A DNA stretch of 64,000 bases from a virus. The stretch is taken from positions 36,795 through 100,794 of IMG/VR virus record IMGVR_UViG_3300032897_000001; one strand, 5' to 3'. Positions 37,693-60,670 of the stretch are shown one piece after another (within the stretch, counting starts at the first letter, position 1; the number at the start of each line of letters is the position of its first letter). A model generated the notes under the pieces. That model searched no databases. It saw nothing but the letters and a program-made list of their open reading frames with translations, and had not been told where the DNA came from. The translations under genes were made by a program, and so were the position numbers.

Positions 37693-37935
37693 TTATCTTA
37701 TGTCGCCCCTACGCGCACGATCTTCCACATATCCTTTTGCTTCGGCAAGGTTGTCAAAGCCCTTCAATCTCCGGTCTCCATCATGTACATGATAGCGGTC
37801 CCCCTTTCTGCGGATGTCGCAAGTCCCCCATTTCATACTATCACCATCACGGAGCCGATAAGCCGTGCCAAAGTCCCGAGCAACGCGCCGCGGCTTGACA
37901 GCGTCCATTGCCAATCTGCCATATCTGCCGCTCAT
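37693..37935 (-). CDS. Small basic protein with N-terminal GR motif, 80 aa
   Basis: It begins MSGRYGRLAMDA. Genes at 55523 (MAGRFGRMAADA) and 55166 (MAGRYGGRSS) begin alike, suggesting a common N-terminal tag. The rest has DIRRKGDRYHVHDGDRRLKGF and AKGYVEDRARRGD, like small DNA- or virion-associated proteins. It overlaps the first glycosyltransferase gene. Confidence 0.6.
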   Translation of the reverse strand: MSGRYGRLAMDAVKPRRVARDFGTAYRLRDGDSMKWGTCDIRRKGDRYHVHDGDRRLKGFDNLAEAKGYVEDRARRGDIR

Positions 37936-38852: not shown

Positions 38853-38867
38853 GGTGCGGGTTCACCA

Positions 38868-39596
38868 CTATGCGGCAATAAAACGAATTGTCTCGCGCGT
38901 TCTCGGATCATCCGGGTAACGATCACCAAGCGCGGCACGCGGCAACGGGCTAAGTTTGTCCCATCCATAAGATGCTGGGGGAACGCTGACACCCCAACGC
39001 GCCCACGCGATCGTGCGGCGCTTTCTCTTTGGCATAAGTCCACGATGGATGTTGCTCGTATCCGAAAGGAACAACGTCCCTGCCGGCCCCAATATGGTCA
39101 CACACTCTCCAGTGTCCGGACGTCCTTGGTGTGTTCCTCGGATAAATTGATGTGGTCCATCGTTCTCATCCACAACGTCCGTGCAGTACATGAATAAAGC
39201 AAGGAAACGCACATCATCAGCGTCTCTGTGCCAATCCTGGATATCTCGCTTAGGCTGATGATTGGGCTCACAATTGAAAGCATTAAACGAATATAACACA
39301 GAAGGAGATTCAAGATAACTTTCCGCTATAGGAATGAAACTTATTGCTGTCTCCAGGAATTCCGGTGCAGATATGACATCCCATATGTCATAACTTGTCC
39401 AGGGATGACTACCAATTGGCACCGGGTCCGGTCTTCCTTGACGGACATGATTCTGATAAACAGGCTTGTTCGATAAGTGCTGTATAAATTCATTCACAAA
39501 AGCAAACCGCTGAGGCAACACAACAGCGCCATCGCGTCGGAGAGTCTCAACGATTTCTGTATTAATCGTAGGACTTTTGTTCTTTGCTTCCAGCAC
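38868..39596 (-). CDS. PhyH-type Fe(II)/2-oxoglutarate dioxygenase, 242 aa
   Basis: The metal site DWHRDAD (His123, Asp125) and distal His184 in SNIHRGLMPKRKRR, followed by an Arg-rich 2-oxoglutarate contact, fit the phytanoyl-CoA dioxygenase family. LFLSDTSNIHRG is the characteristic strand. It would hydroxylate a small organic substrate, possibly a sugar or its modification. It overlaps the next-upstream gene by 35 bases. Confidence 0.85.
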   Translation of the reverse strand: MLEAKNKSPTINTEIVETLRRDGAVVLPQRFAFVNEFIQHLSNKPVYQNHVRQGRPDPVPIGSHPWTSYDIWDVISAPEFLETAISFIPIAESYLESPSVLYSFNAFNCEPNHQPKRDIQDWHRDADDVRFLALFMYCTDVVDENDGPHQFIRGTHQGRPDTGECVTILGPAGTLFLSDTSNIHRGLMPKRKRRTIAWARWGVSVPPASYGWDKLSPLPRAALGDRYPDDPRTRETIRFIAA

Positions 39597-40878
39597 CGCA
39601 GATATCCTCTATTTTGTTTTTTATTCTGATACGGCATTGATTTGCATCATTCGCCGTTCTAAATGATCGGAGCACATTTGTGCGCGAGGTTTCGGACCAT
39701 TCTGCCGGATCAATCCCCGCTGCAAATGCGTCGATCAAAACTTCATTTGCATCCCAAGCCTGTTGGTTAAGCCTGAAAAGTTCATTCTCTTGTTCCGCGA
39801 CATTCGGCCATGTGCCCACGATGTGGTCGCGGACTTCCTGTAGCGCGTCCGTTTCACGATAAAGAAGGTGCGCCTTAGATGGCAATTTTGCTGCCTTCAC
39901 CCGCAAAATCGTCAGTCTGTCAATGATGTCGCCCGGCGTGCTCTGAGTCTCCAGCCGTGTCAAAGGTGCATAAGTCGGTTCCGGACCGTGTGCATTTCGA
40001 CCGTTTACAATCATTTCCAGCACTTGGCTGTGATTGTTGCTTTTCGTCAAAAATTCCTCAATATCGTATGTGTTCCCGTCAATCTTTCGAGTCATCCGAT
40101 AGGGGAACGTTGACGAAATAGGTAGCGTATGCCCGGAACCCTCTAACGATTGTGTCACAATCGTTTTTCGGCAAGGCACCTGCCCACAAACGATAGTCTG
40201 CATTAATCCACAGTTGGCGCCGATAACCCACCCTGCCAATGCGGCCAACGGCGCCACACAACGCAATGGGATTTTTGTCGGATCATTCCACAGGACAACC
40301 CGCCCGCTCACCTGCAGCCGCGCGGCCAATTCATGCCAAAACGACGTTGGAGTGTTCAGCCACGAATTGGCATGCGGTATCAAGAGGACTGTCTTACCCT
40401 CCACGACGCCCAAGTCCGCTGCGATCTGCTTTGCTTCTGCCGCAGCTTCTAAATCTGCCCGAGGGAGCGTTGGGACGGTCGCTGGATGCAGTCCCATGAT
40501 AAGGGCGTACATTGCCACGTCCGACATGAAATGGTGCGCCACGCAGTGATCTGGGCGCACTGTGGCAACAGACGGGTGGACAAAGACGGGGACACCGGGC
40601 CGAAGAATCTGAACTCCACGACCAGCCGCAGCATGTGTTAGAGAATTGATGTCGGAATCGGGGATATCTGCCAAACGATTCCAACCACCAGCAAACAGCT
40701 TCGCAAGATCACGGTGGGATTCCTTGACCACCAGGAATAGCTTACGCCCGTCTGTGCAGTATTTGCGCCGAAAGGCGTCACATAAAGACGCCACGATGTA
40801 GGTGTCTCCCAGACCATAGGAAGACACGAGAACGTAATCGCTGTCAGTTGCTTCGGCTATGAGATAATTGGGTGTCAT
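39562..40878 (-). CDS. GT9-like glycosyltransferase fused to a DUF6165-like domain, 438 aa
   Basis: ATG 40878 overlaps the methyltransferase stop by one base. The N-terminal half has VLVSSYGLGDTYIVASLCDAF and VLLIPHANSWLNTPTSFW with the heptosyltransferase-like GANCGLMQTI site. The C-terminal about 130 residues begin TPGDIIDRLTILRVKAAKLP and end DANQCRIRIKNKIEDI, resembling DUF6165. Gene 46293 has an isolated copy of the latter domain. Likely attaches a sugar and carries an accessory binding domain. Confidence 0.68.
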   Translation of the reverse strand: MTPNYLIAEATDSDYVLVSSYGLGDTYIVASLCDAFRRKYCTDGRKLFLVVKESHRDLAKLFAGGWNRLADIPDSDINSLTHAAAGRGVQILRPGVPVFVHPSVATVRPDHCVAHHFMSDVAMYALIMGLHPATVPTLPRADLEAAAEAKQIAADLGVVEGKTVLLIPHANSWLNTPTSFWHELAARLQVSGRVVLWNDPTKIPLRCVAPLAALAGWVIGANCGLMQTIVCGQVPCRKTIVTQSLEGSGHTLPISSTFPYRMTRKIDGNTYDIEEFLTKSNNHSQVLEMIVNGRNAHGPEPTYAPLTRLETQSTPGDIIDRLTILRVKAAKLPSKAHLLYRETDALQEVRDHIVGTWPNVAEQENELFRLNQQAWDANEVLIDAFAAGIDPAEWSETSRTNVLRSFRTANDANQCRIRIKNKIEDICGAGSKEQKSYD

Positions 40879-41498
40879 TATCGAACAATCCAAGCAATTC
40901 CCAACTCATCCCCGATCATCTGCACACCATGGCCCCGCGTATTGAGCATATCGACGAATTTCCACACCTGTATTTCGTCATCATATGTCGGCCGCTTAAG
41001 TGCATCATGCATTGCAATAATACCACCTGATCGCACTAACTGTCCGTAATCATGGAAGTCCACAGACACATCATCAAAAGTATGTCCCGCATCAATAAAC
41101 AACAGATCCAATGATCCATAGATTCCCTTACCGCCGATTTGCTCTATGACAGTGTTGTATGTCTCAACACTGTGGGTATTTCCGACTATGATGTTTTGTG
41201 GTCCAACGCGACTAAGGAACTGGTCCACCGTTGCTGCGGAATTATCTACAGTCCAGACTTCTTTGAACATCGCTTGAAACACGTTGTGAAGTGCACCGGG
41301 AATGCCCAGCCCTAGCTGCAAGCACGACTTATTCAAGCCCTTGTCTGAAAGGACACGTGCGAATTCGTGGAACTCTGTCCGGTTCTGTTGAATCGCAGGA
41401 CGATATTCGGATGTCCTGTCCTGTGACCTATGATCATCGTGCCAACCCCAATAGGGGAGAAATCTTTTATCATTGGCGATATCGTCGAACACAGACAT
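40878..41498 (-). CDS. Class I SAM-dependent methyltransferase, 206 aa
   Basis: LQLGLGIPGALHNVF is motif I, and LLFIDAGHTFDDVSVDFHDY followed by LVRSGGIIAMHDAL is the FkbM/Methyltransf_24-like motif of sugar and O-antigen methyltransferases. It likely methylates a sugar hydroxyl or amine in the same pathway. Confidence 0.82.
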   Translation of the reverse strand: MSVFDDIANDKRFLPYWGWHDDHRSQDRTSEYRPAIQQNRTEFHEFARVLSDKGLNKSCLQLGLGIPGALHNVFQAMFKEVWTVDNSAATVDQFLSRVGPQNIIVGNTHSVETYNTVIEQIGGKGIYGSLDLLFIDAGHTFDDVSVDFHDYGQLVRSGGIIAMHDALKRPTYDDEIQVWKFVDMLNTRGHGVQMIGDELGIAWIVR

Positions 41499-41503
41499 GG
41501 GGA

Positions 41504-42991
41504 CTACTCTGCCGCTTGGCGGAAAAGGCGCCGCGGTAACGGCGTTGATTGAGCCTTGGCATACGCCGCCGCGGCGGGTCCGAATTTGTATGTGAGCAAT
41601 TCAATCTGTTTTTCGGATGAAAAATATGCTTGGTGTGCCGCGTCTCGGAATTGAAGGATATCCGTGGGATTCAACTTGTCTGTTGGCAGAGGCTGAAAGT
41701 CCTCAGCATGCTGTGCATAGTTCCCCCACCGATCCGGAAGCGGCTGGCCTGTGCTCACAGCCTCATCATACAGCGGCGATCCGGGATATGCGGTCGCACA
41801 GTAGAAATTCGCCCAATCCGATCCGATAGCAAGCGCCATATCCAACGTCAGTTGCATGGATTCTGCGTCATCCTGTGGAAGTCCGAAGATGTAGTTTGCA
41901 ATGACGTTGATTCCCGCGGCTTGTATCCTGCCTACAATGTCCTTGATATCGTTTGTCCGTAAACGCTTTTCTGCACCATCCCTGACAGTCGGATCTGCCG
42001 ACTCAATGCCTAGAGCCAGCCACTTGATACCCGCCTTCCGAAGAAGTGGCAGTGTTCCTGCCCGGACTGTATCCACTCGGGCATATGCCCAAATATTCAA
42101 ATCAGTCCCAGCATTCGGAATTGTTTCGATAATCCGTTCGCAAATCTCACTGTAATGCCGTTCATTGAGAACGAACATTTCATCAATGATCTTGAACGTT
42201 CGCACACCGTATTGGGAATAAAGAAACTCTATTTCCTTAACGACATCTGCCGGATTGCGCATGCGATATCGTCGCACGCCGAATGGCGCATTGATGCAAC
42301 AGAACGAACACGAATAGGGACAACCCAGCGACGTGTAAATGCTTGCATATGGCTTGCGCCCGGTTTGATCATCCAGACACTGCCACCCGTGCGCACGATA
42401 CTTCTTCATTGGAAGAAGTTCCCACACATCACCGTGCAGTTTGGACAGATCTTCAATCAATGGCGCCCGGGCATTGATCCTAATGCGCGCACCATCACGC
42501 CAAACCAGTCCCGGAACATCTTCCAACGCGCTACCGGATAGAAGTCTACAAACAGTCTCCGGACCCTCCCCGACGCACACATAGTCAACGTGCTCACATT
42601 CGCGCATGGTTTGATTAGGCAGCGCCGAAACGTGTCCACCTACTACAAGGACTTTCGCTGCACACACGGATTTGATTTGGCGCGCCGTATCGTAAACAGC
42701 TTCCATTTGCTGCGTAGAAGCGGAAGGCTGGTGCCCATACGCGCACAAGCAGACAAGGCGCGTATCCCCCATGAAAAGATCTAACGCCACTTTTGATGGC
42801 GTTAGATTTTCTGCCTCAGCATCAACGATCTTTACAGTAAATCCGCGGTCCCGCACATAGCCGGCTATCAACCTTGCCCATAGTGGCGGCTCAGCCGCCG
42901 CATCATCTGCGACTACGCCATAACACGTAGCCCGTGCGTTAGGGTTGACGATAACTAGATGCGGGTCCAGACTAAATATTTCCGTGTTCAT
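41504..42991 (-). CDS. B12-binding radical SAM enzyme, 495 aa
   Basis: The N-terminal half has the cobalamin-binding Rossmann pattern with VLVVGGHVSALPNQTM. The radical SAM cluster is CPYSCSFC with Cys224, Cys228 and Cys231, then the C-terminal ribs ILQFRDAAHQAYFSSEKQI. It performs radical chemistry, commonly methylation or rearrangement of a sugar, nucleoside or antibiotic-like scaffold. Overlaps the epimerase gene by 20 bases. Confidence 0.88.
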   Translation of the reverse strand: MNTEIFSLDPHLVIVNPNARATCYGVVADDAAAEPPLWARLIAGYVRDRGFTVKIVDAEAENLTPSKVALDLFMGDTRLVCLCAYGHQPSASTQQMEAVYDTARQIKSVCAAKVLVVGGHVSALPNQTMRECEHVDYVCVGEGPETVCRLLSGSALEDVPGLVWRDGARIRINARAPLIEDLSKLHGDVWELLPMKKYRAHGWQCLDDQTGRKPYASIYTSLGCPYSCSFCCINAPFGVRRYRMRNPADVVKEIEFLYSQYGVRTFKIIDEMFVLNERHYSEICERIIETIPNAGTDLNIWAYARVDTVRAGTLPLLRKAGIKWLALGIESADPTVRDGAEKRLRTNDIKDIVGRIQAAGINVIANYIFGLPQDDAESMQLTLDMALAIGSDWANFYCATAYPGSPLYDEAVSTGQPLPDRWGNYAQHAEDFQPLPTDKLNPTDILQFRDAAHQAYFSSEKQIELLTYKFGPAAAAYAKAQSTPLPRRLFRQAAE

Positions 42992-43895
42992 GCTGCTTGA
43001 ACATCCGATATCCCTTGATCAGCTCAAGAATGCCGTGATCAAGCGAATATTTGGGACTCCAGCCGGTTGCCTCAATCTTGGTATTGGACACGATGTAGTC
43101 GCGCTTGTCCGGATCTTCCTTCCCTGCAATCTCTGCCCATGAAAACGGTGTGTGCGCCGCGATCCGCTCACATAGCTGTAGTTTCGTTAGGTTTGCATCC
43201 GACAAACCCACATTGTATATCTGCCCGCGCATTGTGTCCCAGTTCTTCAAAACATGCACGAACGCACATGCCGCATCCCGGACATGTATAAAGTTCCTGC
43301 GGAACCCTGCCTCGAAAAGCGTAATCGCCTGATCACGAACCGCGCGCAAAACAAAGTCATTGACAAGGAGATCCGTGCGCATTCGCGGGCTTATGCCGAA
43401 CAACGTCGCAAGCCGCAGACTTACGGCATTGCCACGGTTCATAATGATTCTTTCGGCTTCAACTTTTGTCTGACCATAGACACTCACCGGACGCAGCGGG
43501 GAATCTTCTGTGCACTCGCCATCTCCGCCAATGCCATAACCGCTGTTGGATATCGGGATAATGATAGGCTGCGTCGGTGCAAAATGTGCCAAGCTTTCGA
43601 TAGCCTCCACATTGACACCCCAAGCGGCTGCGGACTGTGTGTCGCACAGCGGCGCGCCAACCAAGGCAGCAAGAGGCATGATCACGTCTGCGTCACTTAA
43701 TACGGCACGCAGCAAACGCGTATCCCGCACGTCTCCCCGGTGGATTTGAAGGCGTTCGTTGGCACAGTGTGCCGCTAGGCTTGGTACGCCCCAGGAAAAG
43801 TCATCAAGAACGTCAACGTAGTGTCCTTCCGAGAGCAGTTTTCCGACAAGGACGCTACCTAAGTAGCCTGCTCCCCCGGTAACAAGAATCCTCAT
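42972..43895 (-). CDS. NAD(P)-dependent sugar epimerase/dehydratase, 307 aa
   Basis: N-terminal VTGGAGYLGSVLVGKLL (GxxGxxG dinucleotide site), ISNSGYGIG, then catalytic Tyr140 and Lys144 in VYGQTK. Extended short-chain reductase of the GalE/RmlB type. It would convert a nucleotide-sugar to a 4-keto or epimeric form. Ends at the start of the DegT-type gene. Confidence 0.85.
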   Translation of the reverse strand: MRILVTGGAGYLGSVLVGKLLSEGHYVDVLDDFSWGVPSLAAHCANERLQIHRGDVRDTRLLRAVLSDADVIMPLAALVGAPLCDTQSAAAWGVNVEAIESLAHFAPTQPIIIPISNSGYGIGGDGECTEDSPLRPVSVYGQTKVEAERIIMNRGNAVSLRLATLFGISPRMRTDLLVNDFVLRAVRDQAITLFEAGFRRNFIHVRDAACAFVHVLKNWDTMRGQIYNVGLSDANLTKLQLCERIAAHTPFSWAEIAGKEDPDKRDYIVSNTKIEATGWSPKYSLDHGILELIKGYRMFKQHEHGNI

Positions 43896-44995
43896 AGCAC
43901 ATCCCTCATCACGTCAATTGCCTTCTCAATCTGTTCTGACAGATCAAGCGGACCGTTCCCAAGGAACAAACCCATATCGTGGATTTGATCCGCGCGTGGT
44001 GTGGGGTATTTTGCCCAGGCGTTCCCGTAATGATGCTTATGCAGACTGCCACCAGTCGGCAACCGACAATCAATGCCAGCTTCGCGGAATTTCTTAACCA
44101 AGGTATCGCGAATGTACGGACTTCGTACTTCGAATTGAATCCCGAACGGACTCTGTGTTCCATTCGAGACCGGAAATTTCACCGGCAAATCTTCCGCCAT
44201 GTTTTGAAAGAGTGCCAAGTTCTGCCGGCGCTGTTCAATAAACTTTGGCAGCTTTTTAAGCTGTTCCCGGGCGACCGCCGCATGGATTTCCGTTGGACGA
44301 ACATTGTAACCCATCAGCCGGAAATCATATTCCTGCGAAAAAGCCTGCGGTTTCTGTACATCCCGTGTCCAGCCATGCGAACGCAGCATCCGACACAGCC
44401 GGGCGCACTCATCATCATTGGTAAGGATCACACCGCCTTCAATAGCGGACAGTTGATGTGACCAAAACAGCGAGAATGTATTCATCAGACCCCGTGTTCC
44501 ACAGAGTCTGCCTTTCAGATCAACTGCACCGATGGATTCACAGTTGTCTTCAATGATGGGCCAGGGCGCTTCTCCCCAAAAGTGGGCAGGATTCCCCAAG
44601 ACAGAGCACACGACTTGAAGGCTGATCGCGGGTTCCCCGTGGTATTGGCCCACGTTCCACTGGTCATTACAATCTGCAACAACCAACTCAAGTCCGTGCT
44701 GTACCAAAGGCGCATAAGTTGTCGCCCACGCAAGCGCGGGGACAACCACCTTATCACCCGGATGCAGCGGCCTTTCGCTCCGGTGGAACATCGCAGCAAC
44801 TGCGATCAAATTAGCCGATGAACCGGAATTCACCATGATAGCATGACGCTTCAAATGCCATGCCGCAAACTCCCGTTCGAATGCAGCGACTTCCTCGCCC
44901 AGCGTGAACCTGCCCGATGTGCGCACGCGATCAATCGCGCCGTGTTCTGCATCATCCCAGGCCGAATACGCTGTTGGAAAAAACCACTCTTTCAC
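43892..44995 (-). CDS. DegT-fold PMP-dependent 3-dehydratase-like enzyme, 367 aa
   Basis: LGEEVAAFEREFAAWHL, MVNSGSSANLIAVAAM and IIEDNCESIGA (Asp150 at the PLP N1 contact) define the DegT/DnrJ fold. At the Schiff-base position the usual Lys is His180 (NTFSLFWSHQLSAIEGG), a swap known from ColD and E1/RfbH-type 3-dehydratases. So this is more likely a C3 deoxygenating dehydratase than an aminotransferase. It makes 3-deoxy sugars from 4-keto-6-deoxy nucleotide sugars. Confidence 0.82.
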   Translation of the reverse strand: MKEWFFPTAYSAWDDAEHGAIDRVRTSGRFTLGEEVAAFEREFAAWHLKRHAIMVNSGSSANLIAVAAMFHRSERPLHPGDKVVVPALAWATTYAPLVQHGLELVVADCNDQWNVGQYHGEPAISLQVVCSVLGNPAHFWGEAPWPIIEDNCESIGAVDLKGRLCGTRGLMNTFSLFWSHQLSAIEGGVILTNDDECARLCRMLRSHGWTRDVQKPQAFSQEYDFRLMGYNVRPTEIHAAVAREQLKKLPKFIEQRRQNLALFQNMAEDLPVKFPVSNGTQSPFGIQFEVRSPYIRDTLVKKFREAGIDCRLPTGGSLHKHHYGNAWAKYPTPRADQIHDMGLFLGNGPLDLSEQIEKAIDVMRDVL

Positions 44996-45519
44996 GCAAA
45001 CTTCTCCGCCATTTCTACAAGGATCGTTGATACTTCACTCTTCAGTGCTTGTTCATATTGAACGAACACACCTTCCGCCGTATGCAGTTTGCATACATGC
45101 ACGGTGTACAGCATTTTCCGGACTTGGTCAGTGAAATCACCTAAGTGCTGCACTCCCGGATTCATCGGATCATCTGTTGCAACAGATGTCCTGATGATAA
45201 CCTTCGGTTTGTACCCACCACACGAATAAATGGGGAGTTTATCCAAGTGGTGTACAAGTTGGCTCATTGCCAATAGAAGGAAATTCCATCTCGGATAAAT
45301 GCACACAGGCAGCGCGCCGCGGAGTGCCAACCCAATGGCAACTCCCATCTGCATATCCTCTGCAACGGGAAACTCTATCCGTTTTTCCTTCGGAACATCC
45401 TGCAATGTTTGAAACATTGCGGTTCCTGGCACAGCGACGGCTTGCCCGATGAACACAGACTTAGGATGTTCTGCAAGCATCCTCATTGCCCGGCATAGTT
45501 CTGTTGCGTAATCAGTCAT
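44992..45519 (-). CDS. Thiamine-diphosphate enzyme, beta-type (pyrimidine domain) subunit, 175 aa
   Basis: PVAEDMQMGVAIGLALRGALP contains the Glu that activates the thiazolium, and CIYPRWNFLLLAMSQLVHHLD matches the transketolase/pyruvate dehydrogenase E1-beta pyrimidine domain. It is shorter than full E1-beta because the C-terminal transketolase domain is absent. Pairs with the alpha-type subunit gene 45684, one small gene away. Could add a two-carbon or acyl unit to a deoxysugar. Confidence 0.78.
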   Translation of the reverse strand: MTDYATELCRAMRMLAEHPKSVFIGQAVAVPGTAMFQTLQDVPKEKRIEFPVAEDMQMGVAIGLALRGALPVCIYPRWNFLLLAMSQLVHHLDKLPIYSCGGYKPKVIIRTSVATDDPMNPGVQHLGDFTDQVRKMLYTVHVCKLHTAEGVFVQYEQALKSEVSTILVEMAEKFA

Positions 45520-45677
45520 ATGCCGTCTGCCATACTGATCAAAATCGCGTTGTAAACAGCTTCCTTACCGCCCGAAGCTAACAACTCTTCAAATTTATTG
45601 ATCTGTTTGGCGTTAATTACAACGGTTCCCGGTTCTTCAGGAATCTTGTGTGGTTCTTCATTACGCAAGGACAACAC
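45516..45677 (-). CDS. Small protein between the two TPP-enzyme subunits, 53 aa
   Basis: GTG 45677 opens a frame that ends ATATGA overlapping the next ATG at 45519. RNEEPHKIPEEPGTVVINAK and INKFEELLASGGKEAVYNAI form a short strand-helix unit. The size and tight coupling suggest a small subunit or linker of the TPP enzyme. No homologue was recognised. Confidence 0.55.
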   Translation of the reverse strand: MLSLRNEEPHKIPEEPGTVVINAKQINKFEELLASGGKEAVYNAILISMADGI

Positions 45678-45683
45678 CCCGTT

Positions 45684-46289
45684 TTAGAACTGTACCCGCT
45701 TTCCCGCGCCCGAGTGTGGCCACGGCAGCACATAATCATATCGCATGACATGCGGCGAAAACCTGTTGGAAAAATCCGGTTTTCCCCATACCTGATCTGT
45801 GTCAGTACACACAGACTTCCCGTTGTCTTCGATGACAAAATTAACGGGCAATTCGTGTCCCTCCACATAACGCAGGCATTCATGAAACATGCCTGTGCGT
45901 GCAGTCATGTCGCCAACAAAAACCCAAACATATCCGGGTTGTCTTTCGCGCTGTAGCGACAATGCCAAGCCAACAGCGATCGGAAGCACGCCACCAACGA
46001 TCGCAGATGATAGGATGCGGTAATCCGGATAACACAGCGTGATGGAGCGTCCGGACAAGATGTCATCTCGCAGGAGTTCCGGGGGAACACCCTTAAGCAA
46101 GCAGTGATAATGTGAACGCCATTGTGTCAATACCCAGTCTTCTTCGTGGATATTGTCGAATATATTGATTAACTGTTTCTCGTTTCCCCCAGCCAAGTGA
46201 ACGGGCGCCCGGATCATTCCTGCATCAAAATCCGCAGCAACCAGTCGTTCAAACTCTTGCAGAGATTCGGCAGTGTGAGAAGTGATCAT
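45684..46289 (-). CDS. Thiamine-diphosphate enzyme, alpha-type (TPP) subunit, 201 aa
   Basis: Features of E1-alpha subunits: DNIHEEDWVLTQWRSHYHCL, SAIVGGVLPIAVGLALS, and the TPP/Mg motif VWVFVGDMTARTGMFHECL followed by LPVNFVIEDNG. It is truncated after the TPP domain compared with full E1-alpha. Together with 44992 it forms one split enzyme. It belongs to the sugar island. Confidence 0.8.
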   Translation of the reverse strand: MITSHTAESLQEFERLVAADFDAGMIRAPVHLAGGNEKQLINIFDNIHEEDWVLTQWRSHYHCLLKGVPPELLRDDILSGRSITLCYPDYRILSSAIVGGVLPIAVGLALSLQRERQPGYVWVFVGDMTARTGMFHECLRYVEGHELPVNFVIEDNGKSVCTDTDQVWGKPDFSNRFSPHVMRYDYVLPWPHSGAGKRVQF

Positions 46290-46292
46290 CGG

Positions 46293-46736
46293 TTAATGCT
46301 TGCTATTCCACACATCCCAGTTCCCAAATTCTGGGACCAGACTTTCCGCAAGCGCGTCAATTTTGTAATCGTGACGTCCGCCGTCGATTTCAGCCAAGAC
46401 ATTCTTCGCTGTGTTTCGGACGCCATTGATGGAGTGGCTGAACTTCAACAATTTGTCTTGTGCATCGCTGCCTTCCCGGGCTTTTGATTCATTCAACCAA
46501 ATTTCCCGGTTCGATAGCATGATGACGATAATTGCATGTACCTCGCGCGCACTGATCTTTCGATCCAAATTTGACAGGATCAAATCAATGTCATGCATAA
46601 TAAGTTTCATCTCAGCGTAGTATTCGTCCTTACGCTCGTGAATGAAAATTGCCTTTTGCTGAACAATCGTCAACCTGTCCACAAGATCGGACAGTGTGGG
46701 CAGATATTTTCGCTGCGAGGAATTGGCTGCACTCAT
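46293..46736 (-). CDS. DUF6165-like protein, 147 aa
   Basis: ATG 46736 gives MSAANSSQRKYLPTL; an upstream extension is less likely. LSDLVDRLTIVQQKAIFIHE shows the I-D-R-L-T-I core also seen in the C-terminus of the 39562 gene. Long helices follow. Stand-alone copy of that domain; function unknown, likely a partner of the sugar pathway. Confidence 0.6.
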   Translation of the reverse strand: MSAANSSQRKYLPTLSDLVDRLTIVQQKAIFIHERKDEYYAEMKLIMHDIDLILSNLDRKISAREVHAIIVIMLSNREIWLNESKAREGSDAQDKLLKFSHSINGVRNTAKNVLAEIDGGRHDYKIDALAESLVPEFGNWDVWNSKH

Positions 46737-46764
46737 AATACACCACTCCATTATTAAGAACCAA

Positions 46765-47911: not shown

Positions 47912-49003
47912 TTACACGCCAATCATGCTGGCAATAGCGAACGGCTGTCGGATCACAGCACCCCAAGTCCCCGCAAGAACCTTCTGGCGGAAACTGGACA
48001 GATGGCGCACGATAGGCTGTGCGTGCATCTTTTCGTTATATGCACAGTAACCAGTAATCTGTCCCTCAATTTCTTCCGCGATCAACTGGACAAGGTTTCC
48101 GGCAGACTGTCCCTGTGGGTTCGATGTAGAAGTGGTTCCGTACTGAACCGCTGTCTCGAATCTGATATTCGGGAAGTTCTTCTTCAACAGATCAAACACG
48201 TTCACATTGAACGTGTTCGTGAAAGTCAATGCGACTTCGGACTGTGGCGACATCGCAAGAACCAGCTTCGTATCGGCTTCAACCAATCCCTGGGTTTGGT
48301 TGATCAACTGATAAAAGATAGCCTGAATGTCTGCAAACACTTCGTTGGCAGTGGCATTGATGCTACCGCCCGCGGTAAACCAACGCGTGCCGCCTGCTGC
48401 CTTGGTGGCAGGCGTAATGCTCGAATTCAGCGCAGGATCGTTCAACAGACCATAGTTCTGCAATCCGCCGACGCCAAAGAAATATGTCAGGTTGGAGAAC
48501 TTGTTGAGCACTGTCGCCGCGCCCTGGTCAATTTCGCTAACCCAATTGATGCGCGCCAAACCCGCGCGTTCCAGTTCGCGATCGCCATATTCCTTGATGG
48601 TCTGGAATAGGTACGACTGACGCTGGGGCCAGTTGGTGTTGACGTTAGCGCGGCCATTTTCGGCAAAGTCGCCATAAGACGACACTTCACCGGTATGTTC
48701 GATCGTGGGGAACATGGCAGTTTCGTCAAGCCACGTTCCCTTCCGAACCTCACCGAAGATCACCGCTGCCCGGTTGGGAGCAAACAGGATCTTAAACACG
48801 GCAGGATCAATCATGGTCGTGAGGAATTGCGGAACGGCAGAGTTTGACTGCGTTGCCAAAACAGGCAACGCGTCAATCGCCAAATCGTAGTTCCGCTTGA
48901 ATTCCTCCGGCATGTAGGTTATGACATCCGGAAGGGAAACGCCCATCGCTGCGAGATGGGCAGCGTCCGCGGCGAACGCGGCCTGGGCTTCTTGCAAATT
49001 CAT
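47912..49003 (-). CDS. Major capsid protein (DUF2184-like), 363 aa
   Basis: ATG 49003 has GGGAG upstream; 11 further in-frame residues at the front are unlikely. LFAPNRAAVIFGEVRKGTWL, ENGRANVNTNWPQRQSYLFQT, NKFSNLTYFFGVGG and FNVNVFDLLKKNFPNIRF fit the DUF2184 capsid family, an HK97-fold variant. Short N-terminal scaffold region (about 30 residues). Neighbours cement, scaffold and protease genes in the expected order. Confidence 0.88.
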   Translation of the reverse strand: MNLQEAQAAFAADAAHLAAMGVSLPDVITYMPEEFKRNYDLAIDALPVLATQSNSAVPQFLTTMIDPAVFKILFAPNRAAVIFGEVRKGTWLDETAMFPTIEHTGEVSSYGDFAENGRANVNTNWPQRQSYLFQTIKEYGDRELERAGLARINWVSEIDQGAATVLNKFSNLTYFFGVGGLQNYGLLNDPALNSSITPATKAAGGTRWFTAGGSINATANEVFADIQAIFYQLINQTQGLVEADTKLVLAMSPQSEVALTFTNTFNVNVFDLLKKNFPNIRFETAVQYGTTSTSNPQGQSAGNLVQLIAEEIEGQITGYCAYNEKMHAQPIVRHLSSFRQKVLAGTWGAVIRQPFAIASMIGV

Positions 49004-49020
49004 TTTTATTCTCCCTTGCC

Positions 49021-49995
49021 TTAACCGTAGATCCAACTCGTAATCTTTACGAGTTCGCCGGTTGCACCTGTTGACACAGCAATGTATTTCGTCTGAACGT
49101 TGGTCGCCGCAGTGATCGTTGAATTCAACGCAATAGTTTGCGTTGCGTTCAAGATGTACGTTCCTGCACCACCGGACCCGGTACCAAGTGCCGTGATAAT
49201 GGCTGGAACCATGCCAGATGCAGTTCCTGTTAACGTATCCCCGACACCTATGGTGCCTGTTACAGTTGCCGCTGTTAGCAACCCGTAGGACTCTGTTAGC
49301 AGCGCACTGGCAACGGACTGCTCTGCGATGCTCACAGCATACGTGCCAACACCACCCACTGTTCCCGTCAACTGGGAAACAATAGACGTGCCCGTGGCAA
49401 CGCCTGTGCCGCCTGAGAGCGTGCCGCCGACAACGATACTGCCACCACTCACGGTTCCCGTAACAGTCAGGACGGCTCCGGTAATCGAACCATTGAATGT
49501 CACAGTCTGCGGCCCGATACTGCCAGTAACAGTTGCCGCATTAAGCGTGCCTGATCCTGCGTCTGCTGCTGTTTGCGTACCGGCACCAAAAACCACGGAA
49601 CCATCCGCATAATTGGCAAACGCGAACATGCCCGGAGTCGCGGTTGTTGCACCGGCATTCCGGACGAAAAACCCACCCGAGATAAACAACGTGACCGGGA
49701 ATCCCGCAGGAACCAGCATGCTGTATTCTTGCAGATACTGCGTGATAAGTCCCTGCTGTTCCCGATGGACAAATCCGCTGGGAACGCCTGTACCATTGTT
49801 TGACACAGATGCGGGCGCACCTTCGGTGTCGATTTGCGTATTATTCACCCACGCAAAACGACCAACGGTGACACCTGCCGGACCTGCTACAAGACCACCT
49901 GCACCAGCCTGCAAGGTTGCCCGGGGATTTGCGTCACAGAAATCACCTGCAACAGCAATCGCCGGCTGAACATAGACTTGATTGGGAAAAGGCAT
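49021..49995 (-). CDS. Structural cement protein with inserted tandem beta modules, 324 aa
   Basis: The framework is the Gp24-like capsid cement: NQVYVQPAIAVAGDFCDANP, GRFAWVNNTQID, FVHREQQGLITQYLQEYSM, SGGFFVRNAG, and at the end KYIAVSTGATGELVKITSW. Between about 152 and 302 lie two Gly/Thr/Val-rich modules (VLTVTGTVSGG, GGVGTYAVSIAEQSV, GSGGAGTYILNATQT) very like those in the sheath. Expected on the capsid surface. Gene lies just upstream of the capsid gene in transcription order. Confidence 0.82.
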   Translation of the reverse strand: MPFPNQVYVQPAIAVAGDFCDANPRATLQAGAGGLVAGPAGVTVGRFAWVNNTQIDTEGAPASVSNNGTGVPSGFVHREQQGLITQYLQEYSMLVPAGFPVTLFISGGFFVRNAGATTATPGMFAFANYADGSVVFGAGTQTAADAGSGTLNAATVTGSIGPQTVTFNGSITGAVLTVTGTVSGGSIVVGGTLSGGTGVATGTSIVSQLTGTVGGVGTYAVSIAEQSVASALLTESYGLLTAATVTGTIGVGDTLTGTASGMVPAIITALGTGSGGAGTYILNATQTIALNSTITAATNVQTKYIAVSTGATGELVKITSWIYG

Positions 49996-51023: not shown

Positions 51024-52586
51024 TTATTCGCCAACTGCTACGTCAGCACCTGCCCTACCTTCTTTCACTAGGGCGACGTGATTTCCATGGATGTTTCGCA
51101 TAACGCCATCATACCTCTGTCCCTCGTGTGTGCCTGGCGTCATGTCTGGATCATAGTGATAGCCACACGAGATTTCTTTCTGCTCTCCGGCTTCTATGCG
51201 AGATATAGCGTCGCCATCCCACACACGAAGACTGTTGCGAAGATACGGCGCCTGAAACACCGCATCGGAGCCTGTTGTCCCGACAACAAATTGTTTGGAA
51301 GTTTCTGCATAATCTTCCGCAAACACAGGAACATGTTTGCTCAACAGCGGAAGATTATTGAAGGTGTCTGCGGCCTTTTTCAATTCCACAGGATCACGAA
51401 GAAGTTGATAAACTTGGTTTGGGTTTAACTTCAACTGCTCATATCCTGGGATTTCTCTGCCAATATAAGGACAAATGTTTGCTTTGCTGATATTGGTTAT
51501 CTCTACAATCAAATGTCCGTCTTGCGTTTTTTCCCGGACCGACGCACGATCAAAGGCCAGCCTATCATCCCCAGCTAACCTAGCTTCTATCGCCTCTCCC
51601 CGCTTATCGTATCTGTGCCCGTCAACCTTGCTCACACCCACCGCACACCAATCATTGGCATCAAGCGGCGCCACCACTTTTTCGCATTCATTCTCACCGC
51701 GAAAAGCCTTGCACGTGCCGCAGCGATCGCGGCCTTTTGCAGGGCGGAAATCCACGGCTTCATGCGAAAGTTTGGCTGTGTCCTTGCCCACATCAGCAAC
51801 AGATTCCTGCACTTCCTCCGAGGAAGGTTTCGCGGGTTCCGGTTCTTTGTCCGTGTCGCCCTGTCCTAACATCCCCGTAGCAGGGAAATAGTCCGATTCC
51901 TTCCAGTCGTCTGCGGCACCCAACTTCCTGCTATAAAAAGCATCCATTGTCGTTGTGTTGAACCGCCGTGCCTTGGAAGACTCCTTAAGTGCGCCACGAA
52001 CACCACCACGGGAAAACGATTCATTAATCGCACGGTGATTCCCGCCCAACAACGGCTCCGGTGGATATTTGATAGTATCGCGAAGCTGTCTCTTAGAAGC
52101 TGTGTTTGCGGCCATTTCATCCAACGCAATCTTAGATAATGTCTTAGCTAATCCCGGGTGTAACGGGGAAGGTGGTGCATCAACTGGCGCCCACATATAG
52201 CTTGTGTGTTCTTCATTCAACTTGGGAGTACAAGCACGGCGAATGCTGACACGGTATGTGCGATAATCAATGCCTTCGGGATTGGCGCTGTGGTCAATCT
52301 CTTCTGGCAGTCTCTCGCGTTCTTTCAAAACAAAACCCGTTTCCTCTCGCAACTCCCGTATAACGGCTGCAAGAGGCGTTTCCCCGAGTTCCACCTTACC
52401 CCCGGGGATGCTCCACTCCCCCGGATGATCACCTATTGCGCTGCGCTTTACAAAAAGGACTTTATCATCGGGTGTCGTCAACAAGACGCCCGCAGCATGT
52501 ACAAGTTTATCTTGTGCGCTCTGCCGACGCTTCCCCAGGGGGATGGCGCTGTTTGGTGACAACGCCATTCCAAGCATTTGAGCCAT
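51024..52586 (-). CDS. Nudix hydrolase fused to DUF2213 prohead protease, 520 aa
   Basis: Residues 28-150 carry a complete Nudix box (G63 to F85: [10 protein letters not shown] then Arg77-Glu78, Glu81-Glu82, Gly84). Near residues 282-310 four Cys ([13 protein letters not shown] and WCAVG) form a likely metal- or cluster-binding knot. The last 180 residues match DUF2213: [63 protein letters not shown]. Proheads need such a protease. The Nudix part would hydrolyse a nucleoside diphosphate derivative, possibly a defence signal. Confidence 0.85.
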
Positions 52587-53913: not shown

Positions 53914-54741
53914 CTAGGTGAATCCTGGAACAACAGATCTTCCAGTGCACCGACAATTTATAAGCTGTCCGGGGAAAATTTTTTTCTTCTCAACCGGGTC
54001 CCACATACCCTCAACCACGTTATACCGCTGTCCGTTCATTTTGACATGCTGCCAACGCGGCTTTTTACCAGCACTCGAATGCATCCAAACTGCTTCTTTA
54101 ATTCCTAATTCTATTTGTCGGGCGCGTTGTAACTGTGCGTGTACTTTGTTGTTCTGATCACGCGCAATCAGCGCCGCACGCCGCTTCGTTACCCCGTAAC
54201 GTCCGCGAATTTCCTTGGTAAGTGTGCCCAAGTCCCGCCCGGCTGCAGCACTTCGCATAACCAATCCTTCAACATCTGTCAGATATCTTTCGGGAATTGA
54301 TTTTATGAGCGACACACTTTCTTCTGTAGCAGCCGCGATGACATCCCGCTGTGCAGGCGTCATCTTGAATTCAACACTCATACCGCCGCGCTTCAATGCA
54401 GCACGAAGCGCCGCATCAGATCGATCGGATGCTGACTGCACAAACCAATTGCCGAGAAACTTGGAAAGATCCGTGAATTTCCGTCTCCAACGCTGTGTAA
54501 GCTTGCGCAGGGCGCGCGCTATCGCCACGACGGGTAATTCATCCTCTGCAAGTTCAGCCACTGCAGCGGCCATTTCTGGTTCATTGGCGCGCCATGCTGC
54601 CTTGATCCAATACAAAACGCTGTTCTGCATCTCGTCTATCAAAGCATAAAGTCGCTTTCGATATGCTGCCTCCAATCCTGCATTCGGGAATATCGGACGC
54701 AACACCTTTTCTTTTTTCTTTTTCGGATTCCGCGGCGGCAT
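53914..54741 (-). CDS. Head morphogenesis protein, Mu gpF / SPP1 gp7-like, 275 aa
   Basis: The C-terminal region is diagnostic: RAALIARDQNNKVHAQLQRA, VWMHSSAGKKPRWQHVKMNG and FPGQLINCRCTGR. Cys-containing NCRC with PG before is a hallmark. The N-terminal half is Lys/Arg-rich and helical. It is a minor head protein that enters with DNA or helps assembly. Position after portal fits. Confidence 0.88.
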   Translation of the reverse strand: MPPRNPKKKKEKVLRPIFPNAGLEAAYRKRLYALIDEMQNSVLYWIKAAWRANEPEMAAAVAELAEDELPVVAIARALRKLTQRWRRKFTDLSKFLGNWFVQSASDRSDAALRAALKRGGMSVEFKMTPAQRDVIAAATEESVSLIKSIPERYLTDVEGLVMRSAAAGRDLGTLTKEIRGRYGVTKRRAALIARDQNNKVHAQLQRARQIELGIKEAVWMHSSAGKKPRWQHVKMNGQRYNVVEGMWDPVEKKKIFPGQLINCRCTGRSVVPGFT

Positions 54742-55863: not shown

Positions 55864-58761
55864 TTATTCGTCCGGATCGCTGCCAGCAACCTGTTCCGTG
55901 TTGCCACGCAACAGTGCCGCTGTTGTCTTGAGAATGCGCACCTTGCCCGGCGCGTCGCCTTTTTGGAGGAAGGTTTTCAAATCAAGTTCATGGTCCGCTG
56001 GCTGCCCTGCCTTTACCCACGAAGCAATAAGCCGTTCGCCCCTATGATGCGTGACAACACCCACGACTTCCCCTGGGTGTTCTTCCGCGATATCTGCGAG
56101 CCCGCCAAAGAACCGCGTCTTGAAGTCAAGGAATGATTCACCTTCTGGAACATTTTCTGTTGGTCTCTCACGAACATATTCGGCGATTTCCGGCAAAGCC
56201 TCTTTTGTCGTCTGCCCGGTAAATCTGCCCAAGTTCCACGGACGCAGGGTCTTCGTTATGATCGGTGTGAGTTCTAATTCCTCACCGATCATAACCGCTG
56301 TCTCCGCCGCGCGTATTAAATCGGAACTGTACAGCGCAACCAGATCATAATCCTGCAGTTCTTCCGCTGTTTCCTCAGCCTGATCGCGGCCTTCGCTCGT
56401 CAAGGGTACATCAAGCCATGCTCGAATACGATCCACCGACGTGTCAGTATCGTCATTCATTTTCGTTGCACCGTGGCGCACGACTACAAACACGGTTCGT
56501 TCGTCCACAGCGGAATCCTTTGCGGGCGCGGTCTTTGGTTCGTCCGGCGCTACTTGCGAATCCCTTTCTTGCTGAATCAACCCTCGCAGACGTGTCCGCT
56601 CACTTTCAGTTCCGGAAACACGGGGATTGCCCGAAATCTTTGCAGGCGATTTGCTTTTAACAGCCTCAACACCACTTCCGCCACCACCTTCCTTCTTCGC
56701 AAACTTTCCCGACTTATCCCGCTTGTGTTTGGATTCCTCAAATTTGCGAGCATCCCGGGCAAACGGCGGGTCTCTGTCTTCATCCGGACTCTTGTCATGG
56801 GTTGAAATATCAATGCCACCAGTGCCAAGCAGTGCTTCTGACCATTTATCGTCGGCACCAATGGCACCCTTGGCACCGATCCGCCGCTTTAGATAGTCGC
56901 GACCTTGCTCTGAGCGTACATCAGCCCGGTCATAGAAGTCGCCTTCCCTGCGAAGGTGTCGGGCATTACGTGCGGCAATGCGCTTTTGCCACGGACCCGG
57001 ATCAACCTTGCCACTGCCTCCAAGCAAGCTTTCCTGAATGGCAGAATCTTCTTCTTCCTCTTCTTCCTCGGGTTCGTGGTCTTCGTGATCCTCACGTCCC
57101 CCGGGCGCCGCAAATGCCTCCCCCTGCTCATTAGAAGGCTGTGGATGCGGCGGACGCCCGGTCCTGGCACCTTTGCCCGCCCGCGGATCAAGTCCCGCCT
57201 CTTCCTCTTCTCGCAGGTCCGGAACATCTTCAACGTCAATCGACGCATAAGGCGAATCCGGGTCCGCTGCCACCTTCTTACGGACTTCCTCGGGAGTAAG
57301 TACCCCTGAATCAATCAGGGACACATCTGTACGTGCTTCTACCTCCCGCTTATCTGCTTCGGCCTTTTCGTCCAATGCCCACAGCGGCTCAAACACAAAC
57401 GTAATTTCGTTATCGACTTCCCCCCACAAGGAAATCATCACGAAATCAATAACCGTCGTGAGTTGCGCGCGCATGCGCTTTTCTTGCGACGCAGCAACCC
57501 AGTCATAGAACATCCGAATGCCGCCTTCATCACTGGCATTCAGACCCGTTGGTTGAATGCCTAGAAGCTTGACAATCGGTATCCCACTGACAGACGCGAG
57601 ATGTTCCTGCGTCTGCGCTTGGAGTTGTTCTAGCCCTCCCAGCGGCGCTGACACATTGCTTAGTTCTTCGGTCTCCTTATTGACAACCATCATGCCGCGG
57701 TTGTCGCGCATGACGTTGAACAAATCGACACGTTTGAAGAGCAAATCGCCGCCGTCTTCCAATGACGTTCCCAAGTCTGTCTTGAGGACAAACACGGAGA
57801 ACGCATGAATCAGGTCCGCGACCGATTGCCGGGTCCGTAGCCAATTATCAACATACGGCTTTGACATCTGCGTCATGGACAACCCGCCGAACGAATACGC
57901 GGGTTTGAGCAGATCTGGGACTTCCCGACCGACAAACTTCAAGAGGCGCGAGGCGTGAACCTCCTTGCCCATTACAAACCATGTTTCAGGTTCATACCAA
58001 TTGTCGGATAGTGGATCATCAGCATTGTAGGATGTCGGATAGACCCAGACAGGTTCCACCGGACGCAGAACCCGCAACGAACCTTTGCCGACTTTTGTCC
58101 TACTGACGTTATCCCGACCATTGCCTATTGACGTTTTTAATTCGTCGCGATCCTCAGTGGCTCCGGTGTCAATGTAGAGATGTGCGCGGCCGAACAATTC
58201 ATCTAATTCGATACAACGTCGAAACGCGTCGCGCGCACGAAGATTGTCCAGGGCGTCAACAATTTGTTTTATCTTATCGGACTTGTCCCTGTCCCCGACC
58301 GACTGCAAGCGTATCCACTTGCGCGTCATCTCTGTAGCAAGGATTTCGGCAAACCGCCGAAACTCGGCACGCTGTGCCTGTTCCGCTAATGCTGTATAGC
58401 CGGGGAACGCCAACCCTTCCGCAAAGATCGCGGAGAATGCCGAACCTCTGTTCCACTCCCCACTGGCCCACGAAAAACCATCGTCCATGGCCATTTGTGC
58501 GCCCTTTGGTGGACGCGCTGCAGGCGGAAACTCAGGAAGCGCAAAGGGATTTGTCCGGGACTTGTTGCCGCCGCTTCGTGCACGTAAAAGCGCGGCTTCT
58601 GTCACTCTAACTGCTTGCTGCTCTGCTGTCTCCTTTGTAAACCCATTAGCAAAGCTGTCCGTTGCAATCTGCGCACGACGGAACATGCGGCGCGCCCTTT
58701 CAAAGGCTGCATCGCGTACACGCTTCCACCAAGAATCTTTCTTCGGATTGGGAGCAAGCAT
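55864..58761 (-). CDS. Portal protein (DUF1073-like) fused to a C-terminal histidine phosphatase, 965 aa
   Basis: Residues about 90-500 are the portal: FSAIFAEGLAFPGYTALAEQ, EMTRKWIRLQSVGD, SRLLKFVGREVPDLLKPAY, SFGGLSMTQMSKPYVDNW, SGIPIVKLLGIQPTGLNAS. An acidic, flexible stretch (about 540-600) and a basic DKSGKFAKKEGGGGSG linker follow. From about 755 VFVVVRHGATKMNDD (RHG catalytic His), LYSSDLIRAAETA, and VGVVTHHRGERLI (second His near 907) form a complete phosphoglycerate-mutase-like fold. Family knowledge: DUF1073 portals in other phages can carry a C-terminal Acb1 domain. The HP domain may act on a nucleotide or phosphoester. Confidence 0.86.
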   Translation of the reverse strand: MLAPNPKKDSWWKRVRDAAFERARRMFRRAQIATDSFANGFTKETAEQQAVRVTEAALLRARSGGNKSRTNPFALPEFPPAARPPKGAQMAMDDGFSWASGEWNRGSAFSAIFAEGLAFPGYTALAEQAQRAEFRRFAEILATEMTRKWIRLQSVGDRDKSDKIKQIVDALDNLRARDAFRRCIELDELFGRAHLYIDTGATEDRDELKTSIGNGRDNVSRTKVGKGSLRVLRPVEPVWVYPTSYNADDPLSDNWYEPETWFVMGKEVHASRLLKFVGREVPDLLKPAYSFGGLSMTQMSKPYVDNWLRTRQSVADLIHAFSVFVLKTDLGTSLEDGGDLLFKRVDLFNVMRDNRGMMVVNKETEELSNVSAPLGGLEQLQAQTQEHLASVSGIPIVKLLGIQPTGLNASDEGGIRMFYDWVAASQEKRMRAQLTTVIDFVMISLWGEVDNEITFVFEPLWALDEKAEADKREVEARTDVSLIDSGVLTPEEVRKKVAADPDSPYASIDVEDVPDLREEEEAGLDPRAGKGARTGRPPHPQPSNEQGEAFAAPGGREDHEDHEPEEEEEEEDSAIQESLLGGSGKVDPGPWQKRIAARNARHLRREGDFYDRADVRSEQGRDYLKRRIGAKGAIGADDKWSEALLGTGGIDISTHDKSPDEDRDPPFARDARKFEESKHKRDKSGKFAKKEGGGGSGVEAVKSKSPAKISGNPRVSGTESERTRLRGLIQQERDSQVAPDEPKTAPAKDSAVDERTVFVVVRHGATKMNDDTDTSVDRIRAWLDVPLTSEGRDQAEETAEELQDYDLVALYSSDLIRAAETAVMIGEELELTPIITKTLRPWNLGRFTGQTTKEALPEIAEYVRERPTENVPEGESFLDFKTRFFGGLADIAEEHPGEVVGVVTHHRGERLIASWVKAGQPADHELDLKTFLQKGDAPGKVRILKTTAALLRGNTEQVAGSDPDE

Positions 58762-58978: not shown

Positions 58979-60670
58979 TTACCAACGTCTCTGTTGCGAG
59001 AGTGGTGTGCGCGTCGCACGCTTCATCACTTCATCGCTGATCGCTGTAATACCCGTGGTCACCGGCCAATAACACATAACGAGGCTGTCCGCCAAATTCG
59101 GCGACTTCGTGCCCTGTGGTGTCTTATCGATCATCAGCTTAAGCCGGGAATTCTTAGCCATCGTCGGCTGACTTAGTTCCTTGACCAGCTTCCAAATCAG
59201 CGGCAAGCCACTCGGGAGCGAAATCAAGTCATCTTCATCCCACGTAAAATCCGGATCGTTCACCGCCCGGTAAGTCATCTCAAACCGGTGCCGCAGCATC
59301 CACCACGCTTGCGCTTTAAGGTTCCCGTAGAAATCGCCGTTCTTAAGGGACTGTGGATCATTCGGAATCATCCTTCGATCCGGATGCAACGGCGCGGCGC
59401 CGGCATTCCACGGGACAAGCACAAGTCCCTTGGGCAACAGATAGTCATCCCGCAGTCTGTTGGTTTCGGCCTTTATGCTTGAACCCATGCCGACTGCGTC
59501 ATATTGCAGGCGACACGGCACCTTATCCCGGCAGGTCTCTACTGCCTTCCGTGCTGTCTCTCCGGTGTCCCGCGCACCCCATTCGTCCAATTCGCGGAGC
59601 AAAATTCCCTTGCGGATTGAAAGCGCATTGGTGTCGGAACCGCCGTCCGCGATGTCGAGTGCTGCACACCACCCGCCGTCACACTTCAATTTCAGCTTGA
59701 TGTGCGCGTCGATCGCGGCGCGTACCCAATCGCCCGGGATAACCGTACCAACAACCGCGGCCGAATAGTCCCGGTCAACTTCCTGTGCAAACTTATGCAG
59801 GAGTCCATCGCCTTCGTATTTGGCGCGGAGTGTGTAGTACCATTCCTGCGTCTTGCCCGGGTGGTCCCGCCAATCCATCACCAGGACATTAGTCCGCCCC
59901 TTTACTACGGGCCGGCCCGGAATCCATTCCTCGCCATTCTCCCGCTTGCGATGGAACACGTTGCCGATACCGTTGACAGAACTAATATCAATCTGCGTTC
60001 GTGCGTTGGTCATCAACGCCGCTTCGATCATCTCCGGATGTTGGTAGTGTGCTGCTTCGTCCTTGAAGTAGATAAGCGAACGCCCGCCGCGGCCGATATT
60101 GTCGCCTGCGTCACCGATAATGGTTGCTCCGGTTTCAGGATTGATAATGCGCATGTGCAGCGCATGTTCTTTCATACTGAAACCAACGGGGAGCAGTTCC
60201 CGGGGGAGATGGCGGAGCACGATCCTTATCTTTTCGAGGATCGAATCCGGATCACCAAGCTTATCGACTAGATTCGCCTCTTGTGAACCCCACCCGATAC
60301 TGGCACCCGGCCAAAAGCACCACAGATGCGCGGAAGCGATCGCGCAACACCACGTGGCGCCCATGTCCCGGCATTTCTCAATAAGCCCGGATTCCCCGCC
60401 ACGCAAACACGCGTAAATGAAGTTGAGCAGATCGCGTTGACGCTTGAACGGCGTAAACGGCATAAGCACAGGCGAGCTAGTCCCAGCATTACGCTGGTCC
60501 CACGTCATGGCCCAATGCGAAGCAAACTGCAGGTGCCTTGTGCGGTAATACTCTTTCGCACCTGTCCACAGTTCCGGGGTACGCCGTAGCTTCTTAAGAC
60601 GCTCTGTGCGTTCGTCTATGACAGCAAGATAGTCCCGCGGCGGCCACGGCTCTTTGGAAGCATCCAGCAC
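58979..60670 (-). CDS. terL: Large terminase subunit, 563 aa
   Basis: Order of motifs: Walker A region ECRDMG-like LIEKCRDMGATWCC near 97-104, Walker B LIYFKDEAAH near 199-208, then the nuclease Asp in LDIADGGSDTN near 336, and PNLADSLVMCYWP at the end with a nuclease acidic residue. It drives DNA into the prohead and cuts it. Follows the two packaging genes upstream. Confidence 0.93.
   Translation of the reverse strand: MLDASKEPWPPRDYLAVIDERTERLKKLRRTPELWTGAKEYYRTRHLQFASHWAMTWDQRNAGTSSPVLMPFTPFKRQRDLLNFIYACLRGGESGLIEKCRDMGATWCCAIASAHLWCFWPGASIGWGSQEANLVDKLGDPDSILEKIRIVLRHLPRELLPVGFSMKEHALHMRIINPETGATIIGDAGDNIGRGGRSLIYFKDEAAHYQHPEMIEAALMTNARTQIDISSVNGIGNVFHRKRENGEEWIPGRPVVKGRTNVLVMDWRDHPGKTQEWYYTLRAKYEGDGLLHKFAQEVDRDYSAAVVGTVIPGDWVRAAIDAHIKLKLKCDGGWCAALDIADGGSDTNALSIRKGILLRELDEWGARDTGETARKAVETCRDKVPCRLQYDAVGMGSSIKAETNRLRDDYLLPKGLVLVPWNAGAAPLHPDRRMIPNDPQSLKNGDFYGNLKAQAWWMLRHRFEMTYRAVNDPDFTWDEDDLISLPSGLPLIWKLVKELSQPTMAKNSRLKLMIDKTPQGTKSPNLADSLVMCYWPVTTGITAISDEVMKRATRTPLSQQRRW

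Follow-up and report, generated by a model that had tools for sequence, protein, structure and literature searches.

Enzymes carried on phage head proteins have been described in several forms. 2H, PBECR, InPase and NUDIX domains occur fused to portals and ADP-ribosyltransferases (ARTs) to head or portal proteins (PMC5512222, PMC9503650), and head-borne enzymes other than histidine phosphatases have been proposed to be packaged and injected (PMC9503650, PMC5512222). These known portal-cargo and polyvalent proteins are built like the protein described here, P0001, in that an enzyme domain is fused to a portal, a MuF protein or a head protease. The DUF1073 portal of Burkholderia phage BcepNY3, annotated in its record as a NUDIX hydrolase, carries NUDIX at the same C-terminal position at which P0001 carries a histidine phosphatase (HP), and that of Pseudomonas phage Orisa03 has an ART tail and shares a junction motif with P0001, yet its enzyme is not a phosphatase. 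Fusions of 2H phosphoesterases have been reported for portals in general (PMC9503650, PMC5512222). The anti-CBASS protein Acb1 is a 2H phosphodiesterase, unlike HP in fold and chemistry, HP being a phosphomonoesterase-type fold.

Among described enzymes, PhoE of Geobacillus stearothermophilus (1h2e), GpgP Rv2419c, iPSP1, CobC and GpmB resemble the HP of P0001 in fold and in their R-H-R-H pocket. Mycobacterial MutT1 unites NUDIX and HP in one polypeptide, a combination that recurs in one of our phage loci (L097), whereas the phage studied here has the two domains on two separate head proteins. Histidine phosphatases are not mentioned in PMC5512222 or PMC7824862, and no report of a portal-HP fusion was found in the library of open-licence papers searched. 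Portal cargo enzymes as a class are already known; HP as portal cargo appears to be new.

A phosphatase on a DUF1073 portal

The window, that is, the whole stretch of DNA analysed (64,000 nucleotides), belongs to the virus record IMGVR_UViG_3300032897_000001, which is linear and 100,794 bases long. P0001 is encoded in one uninterrupted frame of 965 codons (Table 1). The preliminary description had read it as a DUF1073-like portal joined in one protein to a C-terminal histidine phosphatase, and the single ORF with its matches to PF06381 and PF00300 bears this out. The portal core covers positions 8-355 of the 357 in the profile (Phage_portal_3, PF06381, the former DUF1073), and the His_Phos_1 match (PF00300) spans residues 759-917 with an E value of 9.5e-33. 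Pfam gives just these two families in P0001; a 2H/Acb1 domain is absent. The acidic stretch and the Gly-rich linker (EGGGGSG) that had been placed between the two domains are both seen in the translation. A full-length model of the protein is weak overall (mean pLDDT 62, pTM 0.38), with pLDDT mostly below 50 across residues 519-750 and two short helices predicted inside this tether, at residues 590-608 and 618-629. Given the low pLDDT of the tether, the HP domain probably hangs from the portal on a flexible connection and is not packed onto it.

Table 1. Positions in the window of P0001, its parts and the neighbouring head genes
Feature	Position	Strand	Basis
Portal-histidine phosphatase fusion protein P0001, 965 aa	55864..58761	-	single ORF; Pfam PF06381 + PF00300
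DUF1073 / Phage_portal_3 core, residues 129-479	57325..58377	-	PF06381 E 2.4e-78; phrog_146 portal E 5e-105
Tether, residues about 519-750 (~230 residues), mostly predicted disordered	56512..57207	-	full-length model pLDDT
Acidic stretch EDHEDHEPEEEEEEED of P0001	57046..57093	-	translation
Cargo-junction motif HKRDKSGKF of P0001, residues 679-687	56701..56727	-	motif survey of DUF1073 portals
Branch-1 histidine phosphatase (HP) domain, residues 752-945	55927..56508	-	PF00300, AF2, Foldseek, conservation
Terminase large subunit	58979..60670	-	phrog_2 E 1e-21
Mu F-like head morphogenesis protein	53914..54741	-	PF04233 E 1e-12; phrog_324
NUDIX (residues 30-150) + DUF2213 prohead protease (351-519) fusion	51024..52586	-	NUDIX E 3e-19, DUF2213 E 8e-49
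Major head protein	47912..49036	-	phrog_264 E 9e-60

The gene lies between terL and the MuF, protease and MCP genes, in an ordinary head module. The NUDIX domain, which precedes the DUF2213 protease domain in their fusion protein, is the sole NUDIX match across the 100.8-kb record, which also holds exactly one HP match. Within the structural region there is a metabolic gene block (37932-46751) encoding a B12-binding radical SAM protein, an NAD-dependent epimerase, a DegT aminotransferase and two thiamine-enzyme-like (transketolase/E1) ORFs, which possibly serves surface sugar modification. An AAA ATPase ORF of 543 aa (PF00004, 1680-3311) is oriented divergently from the structural genes.

Cargo in portal tails and phosphatases in head modules

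Nine portals were used for a profile scan of IMG/VR, which recovered 80 DUF1073 loci; of the 79 unique portals in them, 29 are at least 640 aa long. ARTs are found in the portal tails of L025, L040, L044, L059, L074, L078, L087 and L089, NUDIX in those of L029 and L082, and topoisomerase IB in those of L071 (1662-5534) and L083 (3594-6287), alongside a zeta toxin in L071; a weak match in L036 indicates a probable GNAT. The preliminary description had associated the related portal family with C-terminal Acb1 domains; among the long tails scanned, about two dozen, 2H/Acb1 had no Pfam match. It had suggested as well that enzymes are exchanged at this position and had proposed a domain search for others. 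Several enzyme families, besides HP, did turn up in that search, and by their domain content the DUF1073 portal C-terminus is a slot for exchangeable enzyme cargo. A further tail domain (GSNPGGxYEDxxGxKFYVK...NELLAA...GGDNxG...LDxGG) is repeated in the portals of L029, L059, L080, L082 and L087; it had no Pfam match in the proteins scanned and looks, by eye, kinase-like (HipA-like).

Long tails are mostly marked by a short motif, defined as H[PKD]R..G[KRQ][FY] (HPRDxxGKF-like), that occurs in 21 of 30 long portals (P0001 included) and is absent from all 50 shorter portals; shuffled tails give an expectation of 0.055 of 31. It is placed ahead of cargo domains and often repeated between successive ones. 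A longer form, (F)EESKHPRDxxGKF, is present in the portals of L018, L029, L036, L040, L059, L078, L080 and L087, and the motif appears in non-portal ORFs of L049, L051, L054, L060, L064 and L083 as well. This distribution makes it a candidate processing or packaging signal.

A fusion absent from all relatives, or one created by misassembly, had been considered as a reason to doubt the P0001 arrangement. Neither is the case: L043 encodes a Phage_portal_3-HP fusion like P0001, of 705 aa, with 55% identity in the portal and 47% in the HP; L095, from a second dataset, encodes the same 705-aa protein; and L121 encodes a third DUF1073-HP fusion (765 aa). The single ORF and the same fusion in independent contigs rule out misassembly or chance fusion. 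The junction motif is absent from the L043 and L121 fusions, and the linker of L043 is short. Detection of these relatives required alignments, since viral contigs scanned with a single sequence, either the HP domain or the whole of P0001, yielded no confirmed relative; L043 came from the nine-portal scan, where it is the only HP carrier among the 79 unique portals, and L121 was among the 61 loci recovered when the C-terminal half of the HP domain served as query.

HP is not confined to DUF1073 portals. It is also fused to a Portal_Mu portal (L164) and to a Phage_portal-type portal (L168, where the match, at E 3e-9, is just below the Pfam score cut-off), so that it is joined C-terminally to three portal families. 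Fusions with a Peptidase_S78_2 (XkdF-type) prohead protease are found in L093, L097, L120, L145 and L171, that of L097 holding NUDIX besides, and in L139 HP forms part of an 1854-aa polyvalent protein that also has LPD38 and zeta-toxin domains. In many other loci HP is a free gene of about 190-290 aa; the neighbours of such free genes include those for terminase, portal, scaffold and MCP. The commonest assignable PHROGs families among 74 ORFs adjoining free HPs are terL (11 in the largest family), portal (7) and major head (4); near some free HPs (e.g. L098, L129, L146, L147) there is no obvious head gene within the contig stretch examined. A small Cys-rich motif (CGxC...C...GWC-like) recurs fused to or beside HP and prohead protease, in the HP ORFs of L117, L119, L136, L138 and L163 and also in P0002 and L098 (8679-8972). 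It had no Pfam family match where scanned and is a putative metal-binding module.

The association with head genes could reflect a function during assembly rather than delivery. HP would then act in procapsid formation or DNA packaging and not against the host, for instance on nucleotides or phosphorylated proteins near the terminase-portal motor. The company of terL, portal, scaffold and MCP genes and the fusions to portal and prohead protease fit such a role, as does a portal tether, which would hold HP at the packaging vertex; but the equivalent C-terminal slot of related portals is occupied by typical host-directed cargo (ARTs, zeta toxin, NUDIX, topoisomerase IB), and the scarcity of HP among the 79 DUF1073 portals means that such heads assemble without it. 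We therefore regard an assembly-stage enzyme as unlikely.

Active site and phage clade

The HP domain was modelled by AlphaFold with a mean pLDDT of 95.5, from an input with 44 homologues, and Foldseek matches it to HP enzymes in the PDB, among them Rv2419c (E 4e-14) and PhoE. Its phosphate pocket is intact (R762-H763-G764, R817 and H905; domain numbering plus 751 gives P0001 numbering). Among 44 aligned phage HPs, R66 and H154 are each conserved in 44, H12 in 42 and R11 in 41. The preliminary description had called the domain complete. This holds for the fold and the pocket; the PhoE-type general-acid Glu, however, is missing throughout the clade. In alignment to PhoE, P841-W842 of P0001 occupies the place of the catalytic Glu E83, and across the phage HPs this position is Pro (40), Thr (3) or Ser (1), never Glu, followed directly by Trp in 43 of 44, whereas each of the 11 comparison HPs carries Glu or Asp. 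Likewise, the SHGG-like motif is replaced by THHRxER in most clade members, so that PhoE-type HPs, with Glu (PhoE E83) and SHGG, differ from the phage clade, with Pro-Trp and THHRxER. E82 of Aquifex HFP overlays the PhoE Glu and has been named the likely proton donor; such donors differ between HP families (PMC12051542). With the canonical Glu lost clade-wide, we infer that another donor is used or that leaving groups needing no protonation are preferred. A phosphoanhydride, a phosphohistidine or an acyl phosphate, each with a good leaving group, is thus a more likely substrate than an ordinary sugar-phosphate ester. Loss of the proton donor could also mean weak or altered catalysis; in our estimate the HP domain is quite probably catalytically active.

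A tree of the 44 phage HP domains with 11 comparison HPs (matches from plasmids, genomes and isolate 'phage' records) parts the two sets on a branch with support 95/87 that recurs in 96% of bootstrap trees. By this tree the HP belongs to a phage clade separate from the cellular-type HPs compared; the clade resides in head modules. The well-supported branches of the 44-domain tree force at least four changes of portal label and at least four of protease label, which indicates that fusion of HP happened repeatedly. None of 50,697 isolate phage records has the P0001 portal and HP aligned together; their HP matches are distant (about 28-33% identical), those used for comparison have the catalytic Glu and fall outside the phage clade, and the match in PseuP_222 sits in an early/regulatory region away from head genes. 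Two peptide patterns, of limited sensitivity, run against about 85,000 prokaryote genomes found only an ordinary HP. PADLOC has no model matching the HP domain, and a related PHROGs family, phrog_12933, is carried there as unknown function.

The altered active site bears on what the phosphatase might act upon. Removal of phosphate from a phosphohistidine on a host protein, a nucleoside diphosphate kinase or a phosphorelay component, would alter nucleotide pools or signalling. Loss of the proton-donor Glu would suit a phosphoramidate substrate, and dephosphorylation of nucleoside diphosphate kinases has been reported for SixA, PGAM5 and MutT1 (PMC12934123, PMC11784022), but the solved structures nearest to the HP (PhoE, GpgP, iPSP1) are of phosphatases that act on small molecules or phosphoserine, and we consider such a host protein an improbable target.

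The likeness to MutT1 suggests a two-step pathway in which the protease-borne NUDIX splits NDP-X and HP takes off the phosphate that is left. The MutT1 model NF052459 is matched by both domains of the window phage, each is the only one of its kind in the record, and L097 unites HP, NUDIX and protease in a single polypeptide. Yet a NUDIX box occurs in one of 50 non-redundant HP loci (L097) as against 20 of 77 non-HP DUF1073 loci, so that NUDIX here looks like DUF1073 background, and no independent activity is known for the HP domain of mycobacterial MutT1 (PMC11784022). An obligate HP-NUDIX pair as a general rule is rejected on the same count, the window adding one case to that of L097; the pair in the window may be a coincidence, and a partnership of the two enzymes is very improbable. 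Just as improbable is a degenerate HP kept as a non-catalytic binding or decoration module: the proton-donor Glu is absent from 44 of 44 members and the HP domain of MutT1 appears structural (PMC11784022), but an R-H-R-H pocket almost invariant over very divergent members is unexpected for a dead enzyme.

Proposed role of the portal-borne phosphatase

A question remains, what would a phage gain from a phosphatase on its portal? We lean, by a modest degree, towards a reading in which P0001 is a working portal with a tethered HP of the phage clade, borne by the virion and aimed at a phosphate compound of the host. Repeated attachment to head proteins of unrelated phages suggests that HP is carried as a tool of the particle, and that it is virion-associated is probable. 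Portals are dodecamers, and their C-terminal region faces the head interior. Fusion to portal and protease would bring HP into the procapsid, and each virion would hold copies of it, up to about 12 per portal ring. The enzyme would dephosphorylate a small molecule or a protein of the host via a phosphohistidine intermediate, either in the particle or, once released, in the newly infected cell. An HP covalently bound to the 12-mer portal cannot pass the channel; hence the tether would have to be cut, the junction motif being a candidate cleavage site, or HP would act before or during packaging.

Most likely the role of this virion-borne HP is early host takeover or the blunting of a nucleotide-based or phosphorelay response. 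Anti-defence is plausible when HP is judged by its company, given that the same slot carries host-directed enzymes; as an anti-defence function proper it is put forward tentatively. More doubtful still is the wider proposal that this clade, undescribed until now and lacking the canonical proton donor, is a standard virion weapon against a phosphorylated defence signal or a phosphohistidine switch. If true, this would be a weapon that unrelated phages have swapped among their portals, prohead proteases and polyvalent proteins, one that acts at the start of infection. Long DUF1073 portal tails, mostly motif-marked, offer a simple route to further cargo enzymes, and enzymes fused to heads (2H domains, ART, NUDIX) have served well as a guide to what entering phages must neutralise. 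The recurrent recruitment of the HP clade, together with its changed active site, would then point to an unrecognised phosphate-based target in bacteria.
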